From positions 1 through 48,955 of the forward strand of contig JAPHQX010000045.1 in NCBI GenBank assembly GCA_026196035.1: 48,955 nucleotides of DNA. Direction: 5' to 3'. The stretch comes from Gammaproteobacteria bacterium (GTDB lineage: Bacteria; Pseudomonadota; Gammaproteobacteria; SZUA-229). The position numbers and the translations under genes are program-made. The notes under the pieces were generated by a model. That model saw nothing but the letters and a program-made list of their open reading frames with translations. It had not been told where the DNA came from and made no database searches. Shown in pieces: positions 33,728-41,167 of this stretch (the first letter of the stretch is position 1; each line of letters starts with the position of its first letter).

Positions 33728-35476
33728 CTAGCTAAATTTTTTGTTTAGCTCGAACACTTCATGTTCAATTTCATCTGGATACGAGAGGGTCAGTAGTTTT
33801 CTGACTTCTGGGGCCAGTTTATCAATTCGGCTATTGTTTATGATGTGTTTGATTTCCAGCAGGCTGTTTGCCTGAACGCTAAAATCTTTCAGTCCCATAC
33901 CTAATAATAAACGTGTATAGAGTGGCTCACTGGCCATTTCACCACATAGTGATACACTGATGCCTTTGTTGATACCAGCCTGTATTGTGATATCAATTAG
34001 TTTTAACACCGATGGGTTTAATGGTTTATATAAATGACTAACTTCATCGTCGATACGGTCAAGTGCCAGTGTGTACTGAATTAGATCGTTTGTGCCAATG
34101 GACAAAAAATCGAGTTTTTCAGCAAAGCTATGAGCTGATAAAGCCGCTGCGGGTACTTCAATCATTGCACCTATCAAAGGTTGTGGATTAAATCGTTGTT
34201 TGTTGGTTTTAAGTTCTTCTTTTGCCTGTTCAATCAGCTCCAGTGTTTGATCCAGTTCGCTGATACAGGTCATCATGGGAATCATCATTTTTATCGGGCC
34301 ATAGCTGGCGACACGTAATATCGCACGTAACTGCTTTAGAAATTGATCAGGTTCTTTCAGACAGCGACGTATGGCTCTTAGTCCCATCGCTGGATTATGT
34401 GCAAGAGGGCCATGTTGTAATGTGCTATCCAGTTCCTTGTCGGCACCAAGGTCAACAGTTCTAATGGTTAGTGGCTTGCCTTTAAGTGCTCGTAGTGCGC
34501 GGCGGTAGGTTTCAAACTGTTCTTCCTCGCTGGGATTTTCATTACGTTCGAGGAATAGCATTTCAGTTCTATACAGGCCTACACCTGTATGGTCAAACTG
34601 TCTTAGTGTTTTAATATCTTCAGGTCTATCAATATTGCCATTAAGAATTATTTGATGACCATCTAGTGTTTTAGCTGGTTTGTTTTTTAATTCAAATAAA
34701 TTTCGTTTGCGTTGTTTTTCATCTTTCTGCAGGCTTTTAAAATGCTTGAGTGTCTTTTTATCCGGGTCAACGACAATCATGCCTTCATTGCCGTCAATGA
34801 TAAGCCATTCGCCGGCAAGGATTAGCTGTTTTGCATTATGAATGCCTACTACAGCAGGAATCCCCAGATTACTGGCTAAAATAGCAGTATGTGAAAGTGG
34901 GCCACCATATTCAGTTATAAAGCCAGCTATTTTCTGATGCTGCATTAGAATGGTGTCTGCGGGTGTTAAATCATCAGCGATTATGATTCTGCCCTTAAGA
35001 TGATCGGTTTCATCATCTGCCTGTGTCGCCTGTTCATCATCTATCAGGCATCGCTGTATTCGTTGTACTACATGAATGACATCATCTTTACGTGTTTTTA
35101 AATAAGGGTCATCCATTTCATCAAATACTTTAACAAGACGATTGCACTGCGCCTGTAACGCCCATTCAGCATTGCAGATACGCTGTTCAATCTGCTTGAC
35201 AGTATCATTGCAGAAAACTGGATCATCAAGCATTAGTAAGCTGGTTTCTATGAATTGTGAAATATCCTGTGGAACATCAGCAGATATTTTCTGTTTTATT
35301 TCGTGTAATTGTTGATGTGCTTTTTTACGGGCAGTATGAAATCGTTTGATTTCATCTTTGATGTTCTCTTCCGGTATATTGTATTCGCGTATTTCAGGTT
35401 GTTCACGATAGAGCACGTAGGCCTGGCCAATGGCTATGCCTTTTGATACGCCAATACCGTTTAATAATACGCTCAT
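33728..35476 (-). CDS. ptsI: PTS enzyme I (PEP-protein phosphotransferase)
   Basis: Enzyme I takes phosphate from PEP and passes it to HPr. The 582-residue length is standard. His196 in GGPLSHTAILASN is the phosphorylated residue; PEP-site motifs are LYRTEMLFLERNE, RTVDLGADK, GAMIEVPAA and the active cysteine in SLCGEMASEP. It lacks the N-terminal GAF domain of PtsP, so it is the plain enzyme I type rather than EI-Ntr. It is last in the regulatory PTS cluster, 2 bases after HPr. No EIIB or EIIC sugar permease is in the window. Confidence 0.95.
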   Translation of the reverse strand: MSVLLNGIGVSKGIAIGQAYVLYREQPEIREYNIPEENIKDEIKRFHTARKKAHQQLHEIKQKISADVPQDISQFIETSLLMLDDPVFCNDTVKQIEQRICNAEWALQAQCNRLVKVFDEMDDPYLKTRKDDVIHVVQRIQRCLIDDEQATQADDETDHLKGRIIIADDLTPADTILMQHQKIAGFITEYGGPLSHTAILASNLGIPAVVGIHNAKQLILAGEWLIIDGNEGMIVVDPDKKTLKHFKSLQKDEKQRKRNLFELKNKPAKTLDGHQIILNGNIDRPEDIKTLRQFDHTGVGLYRTEMLFLERNENPSEEEQFETYRRALRALKGKPLTIRTVDLGADKELDSTLQHGPLAHNPAMGLRAIRRCLKEPDQFLKQLRAILRVASYGPIKMMIPMMTCISELDQTLELIEQAKEELKTNKQRFNPQPLIGAMIEVPAAALSAHSFAEKLDFLSIGTNDLIQYTLALDRIDDEVSHLYKPLNPSVLKLIDITIQAGINKGISVSLCGEMASEPLYTRLLLGMGLKDFSVQANSLLEIKHIINNSRIDKLAPEVRKLLTLSYPDEIEHEVFELNKKFS

Positions 35477-35478
35477 CT

Positions 35479-35754
35479 TTATTCGTCTTCGTCGAATCGA
35501 TTGTTAATAAGATTTTCAAGATCATTAATGCATGTGTCAGCATCATTGCCAGTGATGTGTAGTGTTATTTCTGTGCCTTTGGCAGCAGCCAGCATCATTA
35601 CGCCCATGATGCTTTTGCCATCTACTTTTTGTCCATTTTTTTCGATTTTTACTTCGCTATTAAAAGAAGATGCCAGGTTTACAAACTTGGCGGCAGCGCG
35701 AGCATGCATACCCAGTTTGTTGATGATTTCAACAGTGCGTGATAATTCTGACAT
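35479..35754 (-). CDS. ptsH: HPr phosphocarrier protein
   Basis: The 91-residue phosphocarrier has catalytic His17 in KLGMHARAAAKF and a regulatory serine, Ser48, in GKSIMGVMMLAAAKG, matching the HPr kinase target. That the kinase gene lies in the same cluster supports Ser48 as a real control site. Its ATG overlaps the preceding EIIA stop (TAATG), and it is followed at once by ptsI. Confidence 0.95.
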   Translation of the reverse strand: MSELSRTVEIINKLGMHARAAAKFVNLASSFNSEVKIEKNGQKVDGKSIMGVMMLAAAKGTEITLHITGNDADTCINDLENLINNRFDEDE

Positions 35755-36155
35755 TATACTGAATTTTTACAGCGACATTGAATAATGCCATCTGCTCCAC
35801 CTGTTTCAGCTTTTATGGTCAGTTCATCAAGATTTAACTCGGAATAATTTAACACTCTAACCAGCATAGGTAAATTAATGCCTGCGACCAGTCGTGTATT
35901 ATTTATTTCAAGAAGATCGCAACCAATATTGCTGGGCGTGCTGCCATATAAATCAGTTAGTATAAGGATACCTTCTCCATGATCTATGTCTTTAATGTAT
36001 TTTTCAGCCTGTACTTTTATATTTTCTATGGGCGCGTCAAGAGGGACTTCAATTGCTTTTATGTCTGCAGGATAGGAGCCAAGCATTTTATTCGCTGTTT
36101 CCAGCAGGCTGTTTGCAATGCCTTCATGGGTAATAAGTAATAGTCCGACGCTCAT
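35754..36155 (-). CDS. PTS EIIA component, mannose family
   Basis: The 133-residue protein has the EIIA-Man fold with phosphoacceptor His10 in LLLITHEGIANSLL and the segment ILILTDLYGSTPSN. Free-standing EIIA-Man next to HprK is known in betaproteobacteria and some other proteobacteria and is thought to be regulatory because no matching IIB, IIC or IID exists there. It overlaps rapZ by ATGA and ptsH by one base, so translation is coupled through the cluster. Confidence 0.9.
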   Translation of the reverse strand: MSVGLLLITHEGIANSLLETANKMLGSYPADIKAIEVPLDAPIENIKVQAEKYIKDIDHGEGILILTDLYGSTPSNIGCDLLEINNTRLVAGINLPMLVRVLNYSELNLDELTIKAETGGADGIIQCRCKNSV

Positions 36156-37009
36156 TCCATTTCTCGATGACGTAGTGATACATTTGATGCCTTGCCCTGA
36201 AAGTATTTACATAACTGTTCAGTAATATAAACGGAGCGGTGTTGTCCCCCGGTGCAGCCTATGGATACGGTCAGATAGTAACGATTCTGATCTGCGAATT
36301 TGGGTATCCAGTGCTCCATAAAGTTACGAATATGATTGAGCATGTCTATGACATCATCCTGGTCATGCAAAAACTCTATTACTTCCGGGTCCTGTCCTGT
36401 GAGTGCACGTAATGCAGGTTCCCAGTGAGGGTTAGGTAAGCAGCGCACATCAAAAACAAAATCAGAATCAGTGGGTACACTGTGTTTGAATCCAAATGAT
36501 TGAAATAAAATTGATAATTGTTTTTCAGTTCTTAATAGAACCCGCTCTTTTAGTAGAGAGCGTAACTGGTGTATGTTGGTATGTGTCGTATCCAGACATA
36601 AATCAGCTTCAATGGTTATAGGCGCTAGTAGATTGCGTTCAATATCTATGGCTTCTGCCAGAGGGATGCCTTTTTTTGCCAGTGGGTGACGTCGGCGTGT
36701 ATCGCTGAATCTTTTTATTAGGGTGTTGATGTCAGTTTGAAAGAAGATAGTTTCAAGTTCAACGCCGGTATTTTTAACTGTATTAATGATTTCGCTATAA
36801 CGGCGTAGATCGTTGACACCACTTCTGGCATCTATGCCGACAGCAATTTCATCATAGATTTGTATCTGGTTATCGAGGATTTGTTGTACGAAGCTGGGTA
36901 GTAGGCCTAAGGGTAAATTATCAACACAATAAAAGCCTTCATCTTCAAGGGTATGAAGAGCAACTGTTTTTCCTGAGCCGGAGAGGCCACTAATAATGAC
37001 AAGTTTCAT
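36152..37009 (-). CDS. rapZ: RNase adapter protein RapZ
   Basis: RapZ has a P-loop N-domain (GLSGSGKTV at residues 8-16) and a C-terminal domain with GCTGGQHRSVYI that binds RNA and metabolites. In E. coli it directs RNase E to the small RNA GlmZ, linking cell-wall sugar supply to GlmS. The 285-residue length is normal. It lies between hprK and EIIA-Man. Whether the GlmY/GlmZ pathway exists here cannot be told. Confidence 0.94.
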   Translation of the reverse strand: MKLVIISGLSGSGKTVALHTLEDEGFYCVDNLPLGLLPSFVQQILDNQIQIYDEIAVGIDARSGVNDLRRYSEIINTVKNTGVELETIFFQTDINTLIKRFSDTRRRHPLAKKGIPLAEAIDIERNLLAPITIEADLCLDTTHTNIHQLRSLLKERVLLRTEKQLSILFQSFGFKHSVPTDSDFVFDVRCLPNPHWEPALRALTGQDPEVIEFLHDQDDVIDMLNHIRNFMEHWIPKFADQNRYYLTVSIGCTGGQHRSVYITEQLCKYFQGKASNVSLRHREME

Positions 37010-37025
37010 TTTGATTTTTTATGAT

Positions 37026-37961
37026 TTATTTAATAAATTGACTTTGTCGGTTAATAAACTCCTCGCTGGCATCGTGTCCATGTTCAAGCAGAATATGGTT
37101 TCTTACAGCAGCTTCAACCATCACGGCCAGGTTTCTTCCAGATGCTACAGGTAACATGATCTGGGGTATATCGACATCAAGTATATTACGTACTGTTCGA
37201 TTGCCATAGAGTCTATCAAGTTGCTGCTGATCTTCAATAGACATGCGTTCCATATGAATGATCAGACGGAGATATTTATTCTGTTTTATCGCGTTTTCGC
37301 CATACATGGCTCTAATGTTGAGTACTCCCAGGCCTCTAACTTCCATAAAATCTTTAAGTACTTCAGGGCAGGAGCCATTTAGAATGTTGGGACCAATTCT
37401 TGTGAATTCAGGTGCATCATCAGCTATCAGTCGATGACCACGGGTAATGAGTTCCAGTGCCAGTTCGCTTTTGCCAACACTGCTCTCGCCGGTAATGAGT
37501 ACGCCTGTACCCATGACTTCCATTAAGACGCCGTGTAAAACTATTTTATCTGCCAGTAATCCGGAAAGATAATAACGAATCGAATCAATTAAATCATTGC
37601 TACTTAAGTGGCTTTTAAGTAGAGGCGTGCGTTTGTTGTCTGCGTATTTAATGAGATCGTCCGGGATATCAATGCCATCACTGATGATGATTGCAGATGT
37701 GCGAGGTATGAATATTTCATCAAGTGTATCCTGACGAGAATTCTTTTTAAGTTTTTCCAGATATTGCCATTCTGTTTCACCGATAACCTGAATACTGTTA
37801 GGGTGAATAAGATTGAGATGGCCGATCATGGTTGCATGATTGCCCCAATGAATTTTCTTTTTCATAGGACGATTGGCATCTCGGGTGCCTGCAACCCAGT
37901 GAAGATCAATGTGTGTGCTTAGGTGCTCAAATAATTTTCTGGGAGTAAGTCCTTCTTTCAT
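37026..37961 (-). CDS. hprK: HPr kinase/phosphorylase
   Basis: HprK phosphorylates and dephosphorylates the regulatory serine of HPr. The 311-residue protein has catalytic His143 (VLHGVLMEV), Walker A GESSVGKS at residues 158-165, IADDAPE, and the HprK signature EVRGLGVLNIRAMYG. The gene is absent from enteric bacteria but found in several deep gammaproteobacterial and betaproteobacterial groups. Its neighbours, ptsN and rapZ, are the usual ones in those genomes. Confidence 0.95.
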   Translation of the reverse strand: MKEGLTPRKLFEHLSTHIDLHWVAGTRDANRPMKKKIHWGNHATMIGHLNLIHPNSIQVIGETEWQYLEKLKKNSRQDTLDEIFIPRTSAIIISDGIDIPDDLIKYADNKRTPLLKSHLSSNDLIDSIRYYLSGLLADKIVLHGVLMEVMGTGVLITGESSVGKSELALELITRGHRLIADDAPEFTRIGPNILNGSCPEVLKDFMEVRGLGVLNIRAMYGENAIKQNKYLRLIIHMERMSIEDQQQLDRLYGNRTVRNILDVDIPQIMLPVASGRNLAVMVEAAVRNHILLEHGHDASEEFINRQSQFIK

Positions 37962-37976
37962 GAGCCTGACTCAGTT

Positions 37977-38447
37977 TCAGGATGCTTCGCTGGCTACTGA
38001 CCAGCCAGAAAGATGTTTAAATAGTGCTTCATCAGTATTGCATTGTCGTAGTTCACTGCAAAAGTTTTTGTCACTGAACATGCCGGCCAGTGAGGCAAGT
38101 ACCTGTAAATGTTCGTCAGTATGATGTTCTGGAACCAGCAGGGCGAAAAGTAAATCAGTGGGTTCGTTATCTGGACTGTCAAAATCAATGCCCTGATCCA
38201 GTTTTACAAAAGCACCAATTGTCGTTTCATCCTCACCATAACGCCCATGTGGTAGTGCAACGCCATGACCCAGACCTGTTGAGCCGAGACGTTCACGTTC
38301 GATTAAACGGTTGAAAATTTCAGCAGGGTCATAGCCGATAGCACCCAGAGAGAGTATTTGACTGAGCTTTTCCAGAACCCGCTTTTTACTGCTGATTCCA
38401 TTCAGGCAAATAACACGATCGGGTGCAATCAGCTGGTTAATATTCAT
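37977..38447 (-). CDS. ptsN: PTS EIIA-Ntr regulatory protein
   Basis: PtsN is a phosphorylated regulator of potassium and nitrogen-related functions, not a transporter part. The 156-residue protein has the phosphoacceptor His67 in GVALPHGRYG, within the GLGHGVALPHGR motif. It lies 11 bases after hpf and 15 bases before hprK on the minus strand, the conserved order downstream of rpoN. Confidence 0.94.
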   Translation of the reverse strand: MNINQLIAPDRVICLNGISSKKRVLEKLSQILSLGAIGYDPAEIFNRLIERERLGSTGLGHGVALPHGRYGEDETTIGAFVKLDQGIDFDSPDNEPTDLLFALLVPEHHTDEHLQVLASLAGMFSDKNFCSELRQCNTDEALFKHLSGWSVASEAS

Positions 38448-38458
38448 TGCATAGTTAC

Positions 38459-38776
38459 TTAGGTTAAATCAGGCTGCGGTTTATGATGCAGGTGATTTGT
38501 GAGTTTTTCCTTGTGTTTTTTAACCTGGCGATCAAGCTTGTCAATCAGGCCGTCAATGGCTGCATACATGTCGTCTTCGGTGTTTTCAGCGAAAATATTG
38601 TTGCCGCTCATGCTAACTGTTGCTTCAGCTTTATGACGTACACTTTCAACAGAAAGAATAACGTGTGTATTGGTGACTTTGTCAAAATGTCTTTCCAGTC
38701 GTTCCATTTTTTCATCAACATAATTGCGGAGTGAATCAGTAATGTCTACGTGGTGTCCGGTTAGATTGATTTGCAT
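38459..38776 (-). CDS. hpf: Ribosome hibernation promoting factor
   Basis: The 105-residue factor binds idle ribosomes and helps them form 100S dimers. Typical segments are MQINLTGHHVDITDSLRNYV and AENTEDDMYAAIDGLIDKLDRQ. It is the short type, as in enteric bacteria, without the long C-terminal dimerisation domain. It directly follows rpoN, as in E. coli. Confidence 0.93.
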   Translation of the reverse strand: MQINLTGHHVDITDSLRNYVDEKMERLERHFDKVTNTHVILSVESVRHKAEATVSMSGNNIFAENTEDDMYAAIDGLIDKLDRQVKKHKEKLTNHLHHKPQPDLT

Positions 38777-38803: not shown

Positions 38804-40303
38804 CTAAGCAAGGCGTTTGCGCTCATTTGAAGGCGGTATCATCATGGCTTCTCTGTATTTTGCCACAGTTCTACGCGCCACGTTTATACCCTGTTCAACT
38901 AATAAGCCAGCAATTTTATTGTCGCTCATTGGTTTTCGGGAATCTTCATTATCGATCAGCTTTTTGATCATAGCTCTAATGGCTGTGGCTGAACATTCTC
39001 CGCCATCTGCAGTGCCAACATGGCTGGAGAAGAAATATTTGAATTCATATAAACCATTGGGTGTATGCATGTATTTTTGCGTGGTCACACGGGAAATGGT
39101 TGATTCATGTAGTTCGAGTTCTTCTGCAATTTCCCTTAGTACCAGGGGTTTCATGCCTTCTTCACCATATTCGAGAAAAGTTCTCTGATGTTCAACAATG
39201 GCGGTCGCGACACGCATCAAGGTCTCATTGCGACTTAGCAGGCTTTTTAGAAACCATTTTGCTTCCTGCAAATTATTCTTCATATAGGTGTTGTCTTCAC
39301 TGCGGTTCTTATTATTAATAAAACTCGCATATAAAGGGTTAACCCTTAATTTTGGTGCGGTATCCGGGTTAAGCTCAACCAGCCATCGGCCTTTATCCTT
39401 GCGGACAAAAACATCGGGGACGACGTACTGAGTCGATGTTTTTGTAATGCTGGCACCGGGTTTGGGGTTGAGTGTCTGGATAAAGCTAATGGCTGCAGCA
39501 AGTTCACTTTCAGATATGCGTGTGTAACGTTTTAGTTTGGCATAGTCATGATTGCCCAGTAGATCCAGGTGTTCAGTAATAATGTTTTTTGCGTGAATCA
39601 GTTCAGGAGTTTCAGTGAACTGTTCCAGTTGTAGTAACAGGCATTCCTGTAAATTTCTGGCGGCAACACCTATCGGGTCAAAATGCTGGACCAGATGAAG
39701 AACGGCTTCAACTTCATCCATTTCGATTTCTTCATAATCCTTAAGGATGCCGATATGAATATCTTCGAGGCTTTCCTTTAAATAACCATCATCGTCAATG
39801 GCATCAATAATAGAAGTAGCAATGGCGCGATCTGCATCACTTAAATTGGTAACCTGAAGCTGCCATAACAGGTGTTCGATGAGTGAATCATTGTCGCCAC
39901 TCTGATTTTCGAGAAATTCCCTGGCTTTATCATCATCAGTGATGGTGCCACTGCTGCTCGCAGTGGTCATGTCATAGATATCATCCCAGGCACTATCAAC
40001 TGGCAGATCATCAGGGATTTCCTGATTTTCGTTGATATCCATATTATTGATATCAGGCTGTTCAGTTGTCTCAGGCGTGCTGGCTTCGGCTTCCTGTGAC
40101 TGGCTATTGGGGGTTTCTGTGTTTTCTGTGGCTTCGGCAGACTGATTTTCATCTTCAGCCTCCAGCATCGGATTTGATTCAAGGACTTCCTGAATTTCAG
40201 CCTGTAATTCTAATGAAGATAGCTGCAACAGCCTGATGGCCTGCTGGAGCTGGGGGGTCATGGTGAGTGATTGACCGATGCGTAACTGTAAGGACTGCTT
40301 CAT
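38804..40303 (-). CDS. rpoN: RNA polymerase sigma-54 factor
   Basis: The 499-residue sigma factor begins with the activator-interacting region I (SLQLRIGQSLTMTPQLQQAI). An acidic, low-complexity region II follows at about 55-110, then the core-binding and helix-turn-helix parts. Near the C-terminus is the RpoN box (ARRTVAKYREAM) that reads the -24 element. Region II is rich in Glu, Asn and Thr. The 138-base gap before it holds a sigma-54 promoter candidate, so the factor may regulate its own gene. Confidence 0.97.
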   Translation of the reverse strand: MKQSLQLRIGQSLTMTPQLQQAIRLLQLSSLELQAEIQEVLESNPMLEAEDENQSAEATENTETPNSQSQEAEASTPETTEQPDINNMDINENQEIPDDLPVDSAWDDIYDMTTASSSGTITDDDKAREFLENQSGDNDSLIEHLLWQLQVTNLSDADRAIATSIIDAIDDDGYLKESLEDIHIGILKDYEEIEMDEVEAVLHLVQHFDPIGVAARNLQECLLLQLEQFTETPELIHAKNIITEHLDLLGNHDYAKLKRYTRISESELAAAISFIQTLNPKPGASITKTSTQYVVPDVFVRKDKGRWLVELNPDTAPKLRVNPLYASFINNKNRSEDNTYMKNNLQEAKWFLKSLLSRNETLMRVATAIVEHQRTFLEYGEEGMKPLVLREIAEELELHESTISRVTTQKYMHTPNGLYEFKYFFSSHVGTADGGECSATAIRAMIKKLIDNEDSRKPMSDNKIAGLLVEQGINVARRTVAKYREAMMIPPSNERKRLA

Positions 40304-40367
40304 TCTTATTTTATTGCGGAATCTTAAATCTCTGTTAGTAATGATTTTACTTCAAAATGGAGCAATA

Positions 40368-40383
40368 TGCAGAGATTGTGCCA
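40368..40383 (-). promoter_or_regulatory. Near-consensus sigma-54 promoter upstream of rpoN
   Basis: On the minus strand TGGCACAATCTCTGCA matches the sigma-54 consensus TGGCAC-N5-TTGCA at all but one base, with GG and GC in correct phase. It lies in the lptB-rpoN gap, and transcription would begin near 40357, about 54 bases before the rpoN ATG. This suggests autoregulation. Confidence 0.6.
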
Positions 40384-40441: not shown

Positions 40442-41167
40442 TTACAGACTAAAGTTATGGCCCAAATAAACATCTTTAACGTTTTCATCGTTCATCACTG
40501 CTTCCGGGCTGCCTTCTGCAATAACCTGGCCGGCACTCATAATATAGGCGCGCTGACAGATGCCCAGCGTTTCTCTGACATTATGATCAGTAATAAGCAC
40601 ACCGATATTTCTTTCTGTAAGTTGTTGAATAATACGCTGAATTTCAAGTACTGAGATAGGATCAACACCAGCAAAAGGCTCATCCAGTAAAATAAAACCG
40701 GGTTCCGCGGCCAGAGCTCTGGCAATTTCAACTCTTCGTCTTTCACCACCAGACAGGCTGATACCGGTATTATCCCGGATATGGTCAATCTGCAGATCAT
40801 CCAGCAACTCCTGCAGACGTTGTTTGCGCTGGCTTCGACTGAGGTCATGTCGGGTTTCCAGTATCGCCATAATGTTATCGGTGACACTGAGTTTTCTGAA
40901 AACAGAGGCTTCCTGGGGTAAATAGCCAATACCCATACGTGCGCGATTGTGCATGGGCAGTTGTGTAATATTCTTTTCATTTAAAAAAATATTGCCCTTA
41001 TCAGCCTGTATCAGACCCACCATCATATAAAAGCTGGTGGTCTTACCAGCACCATTAGGGCCTAACAGACCAATAACTTCACCGCTTCTGACTGAAATAG
41101 ATACCTGATCAACGACTTTGCGCGAGCGAAAGGTTTTTATCAGGTTATCTGCCCGTAATATATTCAT
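40442..41167 (-). CDS. lptB: LPS export ABC transporter ATPase LptB
   Basis: LptB powers extraction of LPS from the inner membrane with LptFG. The 241-residue ATPase has Walker [12 protein letters not shown], the Q-loop region [15 protein letters not shown], signature [12 protein letters not shown], Walker [14 protein letters not shown] and a His switch (ITDHNVRET). It starts 3 bases after lptA ends, in the conserved lptC-lptA-lptB order. The partner genes lptF and lptG are not in the window. Confidence 0.96.

Follow-up and report, generated by a model that had tools for sequence, protein, structure and literature searches.

In the window, i.e., the whole stretch of 48,955 nucleotides that was analysed, the gene of sigma-54, rpoN, is preceded by a -24/-12 element of the sigma-54 type, which is conserved among related genomes, keeps a fixed register with a -10-like element of the sigma-70 type and forms with it a strict composite specific to rpoN. 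As far as sequence comparison can tell, this sigma-54-like site is a real one and not a chance match, since its fixed place 5' of rpoN is conserved and such sites are enriched class-wide in front of this gene; rpoN very probably is a target of sigma-54 here. Respective to function, the architecture points more to autorepression through holoenzyme competition than to a simple enhancer-driven promoter, because an overlap in fixed register is what competition requires and because glmY, glmZ, Pseudomonas and Rhizobium provide precedents. We give a probability of about 0.55 to the reading of a composite rpoN promoter, where the sigma-54 site lies over a sigma-70-type promoter and the level of sigma-54 would be held by autorepression.

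The -24/-12 element and the rpoN gene cluster

The features considered are the following:

33728..35476, minus strand: enzyme I-like protein (named from its sequence alone)
35479..35754, minus strand: HPr-like protein (named from its sequence alone)
35754..36155, minus strand: mannose-type EIIA
36152..37009, minus strand: rapZ
37026..37961, minus strand: hprK
37977..38447, minus strand: ptsN (EIIA-Ntr)
38459..38776, minus strand: hpf, ribosome hibernation factor
38804..40303, minus strand: rpoN (sigma-54; AID, CBD and DBD domains)
40336..40337, minus strand: predicted sigma-70 start (A at 40336 invariant in 12 aligned relatives)
40344..40349, minus strand: TAAAAT, -10-like element of the sigma-70-type promoter, at the same distance in aligned relatives
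40344..40383, minus strand: complete 40-base composite promoter; its strict pattern is single in each carrying genome and found at rpoN only
40357, minus strand: predicted sigma-54 start (+1 if the C of GC is -12)
40367..40372, minus strand: CTGCAT, possible -35 of the overlapping sigma-70 promoter, overlapping the -12 box, 17 bases from the -10-like element
40368..40383, minus strand (that of rpoN): sigma-54 -24/-12 element TGGCACAATCTCTGCA, whose GG and GC do not vary among the 12 aligned relatives
40442..41167, minus strand: lptB, ABC ATPase, upstream neighbour of rpoN

With its GG (40382-40381) at -24, its GC (40370-40369) at -12 and exactly ten bases in between, the 16-mer TGGCACAATCTCTGCA has the phase of a sigma-54 promoter and nearly matches the consensus, scoring 0.91 of the maximum on a hand-weighted consensus score. 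A preliminary description had reported a single mismatch with exact GG/GC phase, which holds for TGGCAC-N5-TTGCW, the longer TGGCACG-N4-TTGCW giving two (A for G, C for T); it had also placed the element at these coordinates on the rpoN strand, within the 138-base gap between the end of lptB (40442) and the ATG of rpoN (40303), which re-reading of the sequence confirmed. In its CTGCA form, the -12 box presumably resembles that of the weakly bound nifH promoter of Klebsiella pneumoniae. Transcription from this element would start 54 bases 5' of the ATG.

As previously described, rpoN heads a tight run of genes, namely rpoN-hpf-ptsN-hprK-rapZ followed by the PTS genes, all on one strand and separated by gaps of at most 27 bases, and the whole run is likely carried by a single transcript.

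Counting motifs says little about the site. With up to two mismatches, 34 matches were observed in the window for 31.3 expected from shuffled sequence, i.e., chance level, while the pattern TGGCAC-N6-TGCW gave 9 matches genome-wide against 5 for the reversed control, which is not clearly above chance; as such, pattern counts in the window or the genome were rejected as stand-alone evidence. Elsewhere, a full-consensus sigma-54 site, TGGCACGCGGTTTGCT, was noticed at L046:1501-1516 (G000:C100:8416-8431) and at L250, where a 130-codon ORF follows after about 42 bases, the site and its leader being conserved in sister genome G002; at L240 and L245, from two other genera of the family, full-consensus sites with similar leaders are followed after about 50 bases by a 488-codon ORF.

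A composite element conserved among relatives

When rpoN was taken from 58 related genomes and the upstream DNA read, 13 genomes from at least six genera carried TGGCAYA-N4-(C/A)TGCWT, the first base of which lies 72-82 bases ahead of the rpoN start codon. In genera g1, g3, g4, g5, g6 and g10, all of the same family, the site is present without exception in the genomes whose upstream DNA was read. Twelve genomes could be aligned on the site without gaps; the columns TGGCA, A, TGC and T do not vary among them, while much of the flanking sequence is unconserved. The thirteenth genome (L053) carries an agreeing site. The form of the site in this clade deviates from the sigma-54 consensus by an A after TGGCAC and a C before TGC. 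In the RpoN tree, which omits one genome with a truncated RpoN (L005) and where L100, identical to L011, was not counted, the site carriers with full-length RpoN form one clade (99% SH-aLRT). The remaining members of the family are without the site, and since many relatives thus do without it, rpoN can dispense with this control.

A second conserved block, mostly TTTGAAG-TANACT, begins 11 bases after the site in the 12 aligned genomes and ends in a -10-like hexamer, which reads TANANT in 11 of them and AAATAT in the twelfth. In all 12, as in the thirteenth carrier, this hexamer sits exactly 17 bases after the position of CTGCAT, thereby keeping a fixed register with the -24/-12 element, as expected of overlapping promoters of the glmY type. 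Compared with TTGACA, CTGCAT is a weak match sharing the TG core only; its C is nonetheless kept in 11 of the 12 genomes and its last T in all 12, though the sigma-54 consensus requires neither. Eight bases beyond the hexamer, an invariant A falls at about the position expected for a sigma-70 start. A generic sigma-70 scan did not call the sigma-70-like promoter of the composite. The strict composite pattern has a single copy per genome in 9 of the 58, every copy being 5' of rpoN (none for the reversed control), and this confinement indicates a device of rpoN rather than a general operator.

In sister genera without the sigma-54 site (L013-L016), a plain TATGAT-like -10 lies upstream of rpoN, shortly after lptB. 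In L004, GCTATGAT, which resembles it, persists 5' of the composite and is perhaps an older upstream promoter.

rpoN upstream regions across Gammaproteobacteria

A sample of 276 Gammaproteobacteria supplied 106 regions upstream of rpoN, generally a single one for each family. At a hand-weighted score of at least 0.84, a site was found in 34 of the 106 regions, while shuffled sequence, reversed sequence and the antisense strand gave 1.2, 1 and 11; at 0.90 or above, the figures were 16, 0.08, 0 and 0, respectively. About two thirds of the sample are without a sigma-54-like site at rpoN, as is E. coli, where the best score is 0.67. Since this score rewards GG and GC, their invariance in the class set is partly built in, while the result on the -10 described hereafter is independent of it.

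Of 29 class rpoN sites, 18 show TANNNT one base past the 16-mer and thus past its -12 box; in 12, an nTGnnn hexamer precedes that TANNNT by 17 bases. In the control, namely canonical sigma-54 sites from the family of the window, TANNNT at the same position is found in 2 of 30 (Fisher p=6e-6), and on that count the idea that sigma-54 promoters generally have such a -10-like element was rejected. In the class lineages, the sigma-54-like site mostly falls within the spacer of a sigma-70-like promoter. Given this excess at rpoN over the control sites, a sigma-54-like site laid over a sigma-70-like promoter is a recurring feature of rpoN among distant lineages and comes in two registers. In L117 and L127, a TAAATTA-like stretch follows the sigma-54-like site upstream of rpoN by several bases instead of adjoining it, possibly a third register.

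Proposed competition of holoenzymes, other readings and known systems

Once on DNA, the sigma-54 holoenzyme is stable and silent until activated, so that a site placed over the promoter of its own gene would make a simple device for fixing its level. In the proposed mechanism, when sigma-54 is plentiful, its holoenzyme, lying on the site in a closed complex that stays silent, would block the sigma-70 enzyme; when sigma-54 is scarce, the sigma-70 enzyme would transcribe rpoN and the genes behind it, the net effect being that sigma-54 would be kept at a set level. In a second mode, the same site might also fire if an enhancer-binding protein reaches the complex. From this arrangement we infer that sigma-54 binds, that it represses, and that the repression extends to hpf, ptsN, hprK, rapZ and the PTS genes. 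More tentatively, and with the odds somewhat against it, Gammaproteobacteria may repeatedly have evolved a sigma-54 homeostat, in which a -24/-12 element is superimposed on the sigma-70 promoter of rpoN; its registers would be two or more, i.e., within the spacer or, as in this clade, with the -12 and the -35 fused, and one short sequence would set sigma-54 and, via the operon, ribosome hibernation and the regulatory PTS.

The most serious rival, of which we remain doubtful, is a working sigma-54 promoter under an enhancer-binding protein, where an active activator would raise rpoN together with the hpf-ptsN-hprK-rapZ-PTS genes. The good element in the right phase, the fitting start, at least seven GAFTGA-type activators encoded in the genome, and the glmY precedent, which permits activation as well as competition, all speak for it, but no NtrC, NifA, QseF or NorR-like site, the known enhancer motifs tried, is conserved across the clade within 300 bases upstream. 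Moreover, the end of lptB is just 29-34 bases from the site in four genomes and nearer in some other lineages, and an enhancer-driven promoter alone leaves the -10-like element at fixed distance unexplained. What stood of the earlier proposal, that an enhancer-binding protein governs rpoN and the genes downstream, is the conserved sigma-54 element tied to rpoN and the tight run of genes that rpoN heads; with the sigma-70-like overlap in fixed register, and with lptB some 30 bases away in four genomes, competition or autorepression fits better than activation. A perfect QseF-like TGT-N12-ACA was seen 97-233 bases upstream of the site in L008, L009, L010, L012 and L053; found in most g4-related genomes only, with borderline shuffle frequencies of 0.05 to 0.13, it could be a candidate enhancer site in that genus.

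It is improbable that the TGGCACAA-N3-CTGCAT block is instead the operator of another DNA-binding regulator, at about -38 of the sigma-70 promoter: its centre has the position typical of class II activators or repressors and the clade shows fixed deviations from the sigma-54 consensus, yet the class set retains GG-N10-GC and an A/T-rich middle in a different register to the -10, and in Pseudomonas aeruginosa RpoN binds upstream of rpoN (PMC8855297). As for a functionless chance match, its frequency in the window equals the shuffled expectation, but conservation in 13 genomes amid diverging flanks, class-wide enrichment and a strict composite found only at rpoN make it negligible. Autorepression by competing holoenzymes is thus the preferred reading, and the composite being short and conserved, it is directly testable by point mutations. 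If the genes do share a transcript, hpf and the nitrogen-type PTS genes would be coupled to the level of sigma-54.

For rpoN, self-regulation has been reported in Pseudomonas putida (Kohler et al., 1994, as cited in PMC8855297), P. aeruginosa and Rhizobium leguminosarum, and is predicted for Gammaproteobacteria, where rpoN is enriched among predicted sigma-54 targets, an enrichment read as autoregulation in PMC12316311; the present clade is probably a further conserved case with a register of its own. It would extend such self-regulation beyond the few model species to many Gammaproteobacteria that have not been cultured. Constitutive rpoN in enteric bacteria, as formerly contrasted with autoregulated copies in rhizobia, agrees with the lack of the site in E. 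coli, but confining autoregulation to rhizobia is too narrow, gammaproteobacterial cases being published (PMC8855297; PMC12316311). The sigma-54 promoters predicted for rpoN across many bacterial classes are alike in enrichment; the passage concerned in PMC12316311 takes autoregulation as a general inference, and an overlap with a sigma-70-type promoter is not described there. In the literature consulted, a recurrent overlap of this kind at rpoN, or a register where -12 and -35 coincide, was not found described. The likeness to Pseudomonas lies in a gammaproteobacterial rpoN with RpoN at its own gene, compared here by reports and not by promoter sequence (PMC8855297). In R. leguminosarum, RpoN lowers its own expression (PMC3538637); that rpoN is alphaproteobacterial and the likeness is again one of reported autoregulation rather than of promoter sequence. 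Closest in mechanism are the enterobacterial glmY and glmZ: in E. coli, the sigma-70 promoter of glmY is repressed by sigma-54 bound to the site that overlaps it (PMC6075780), and glmZ transcription is higher in an enterobacterial rpoN mutant (PMC3844500), so that two holoenzymes contest one stretch of DNA, as the sequence suggests here. The glmY promoter differs in having known QseF enhancer sites, whereas none is conserved in this clade, and in its register, the glmY-type -12 lying beside the -10, whereas here the -12 box falls on the -35 position, 17 bases upstream of the -10.
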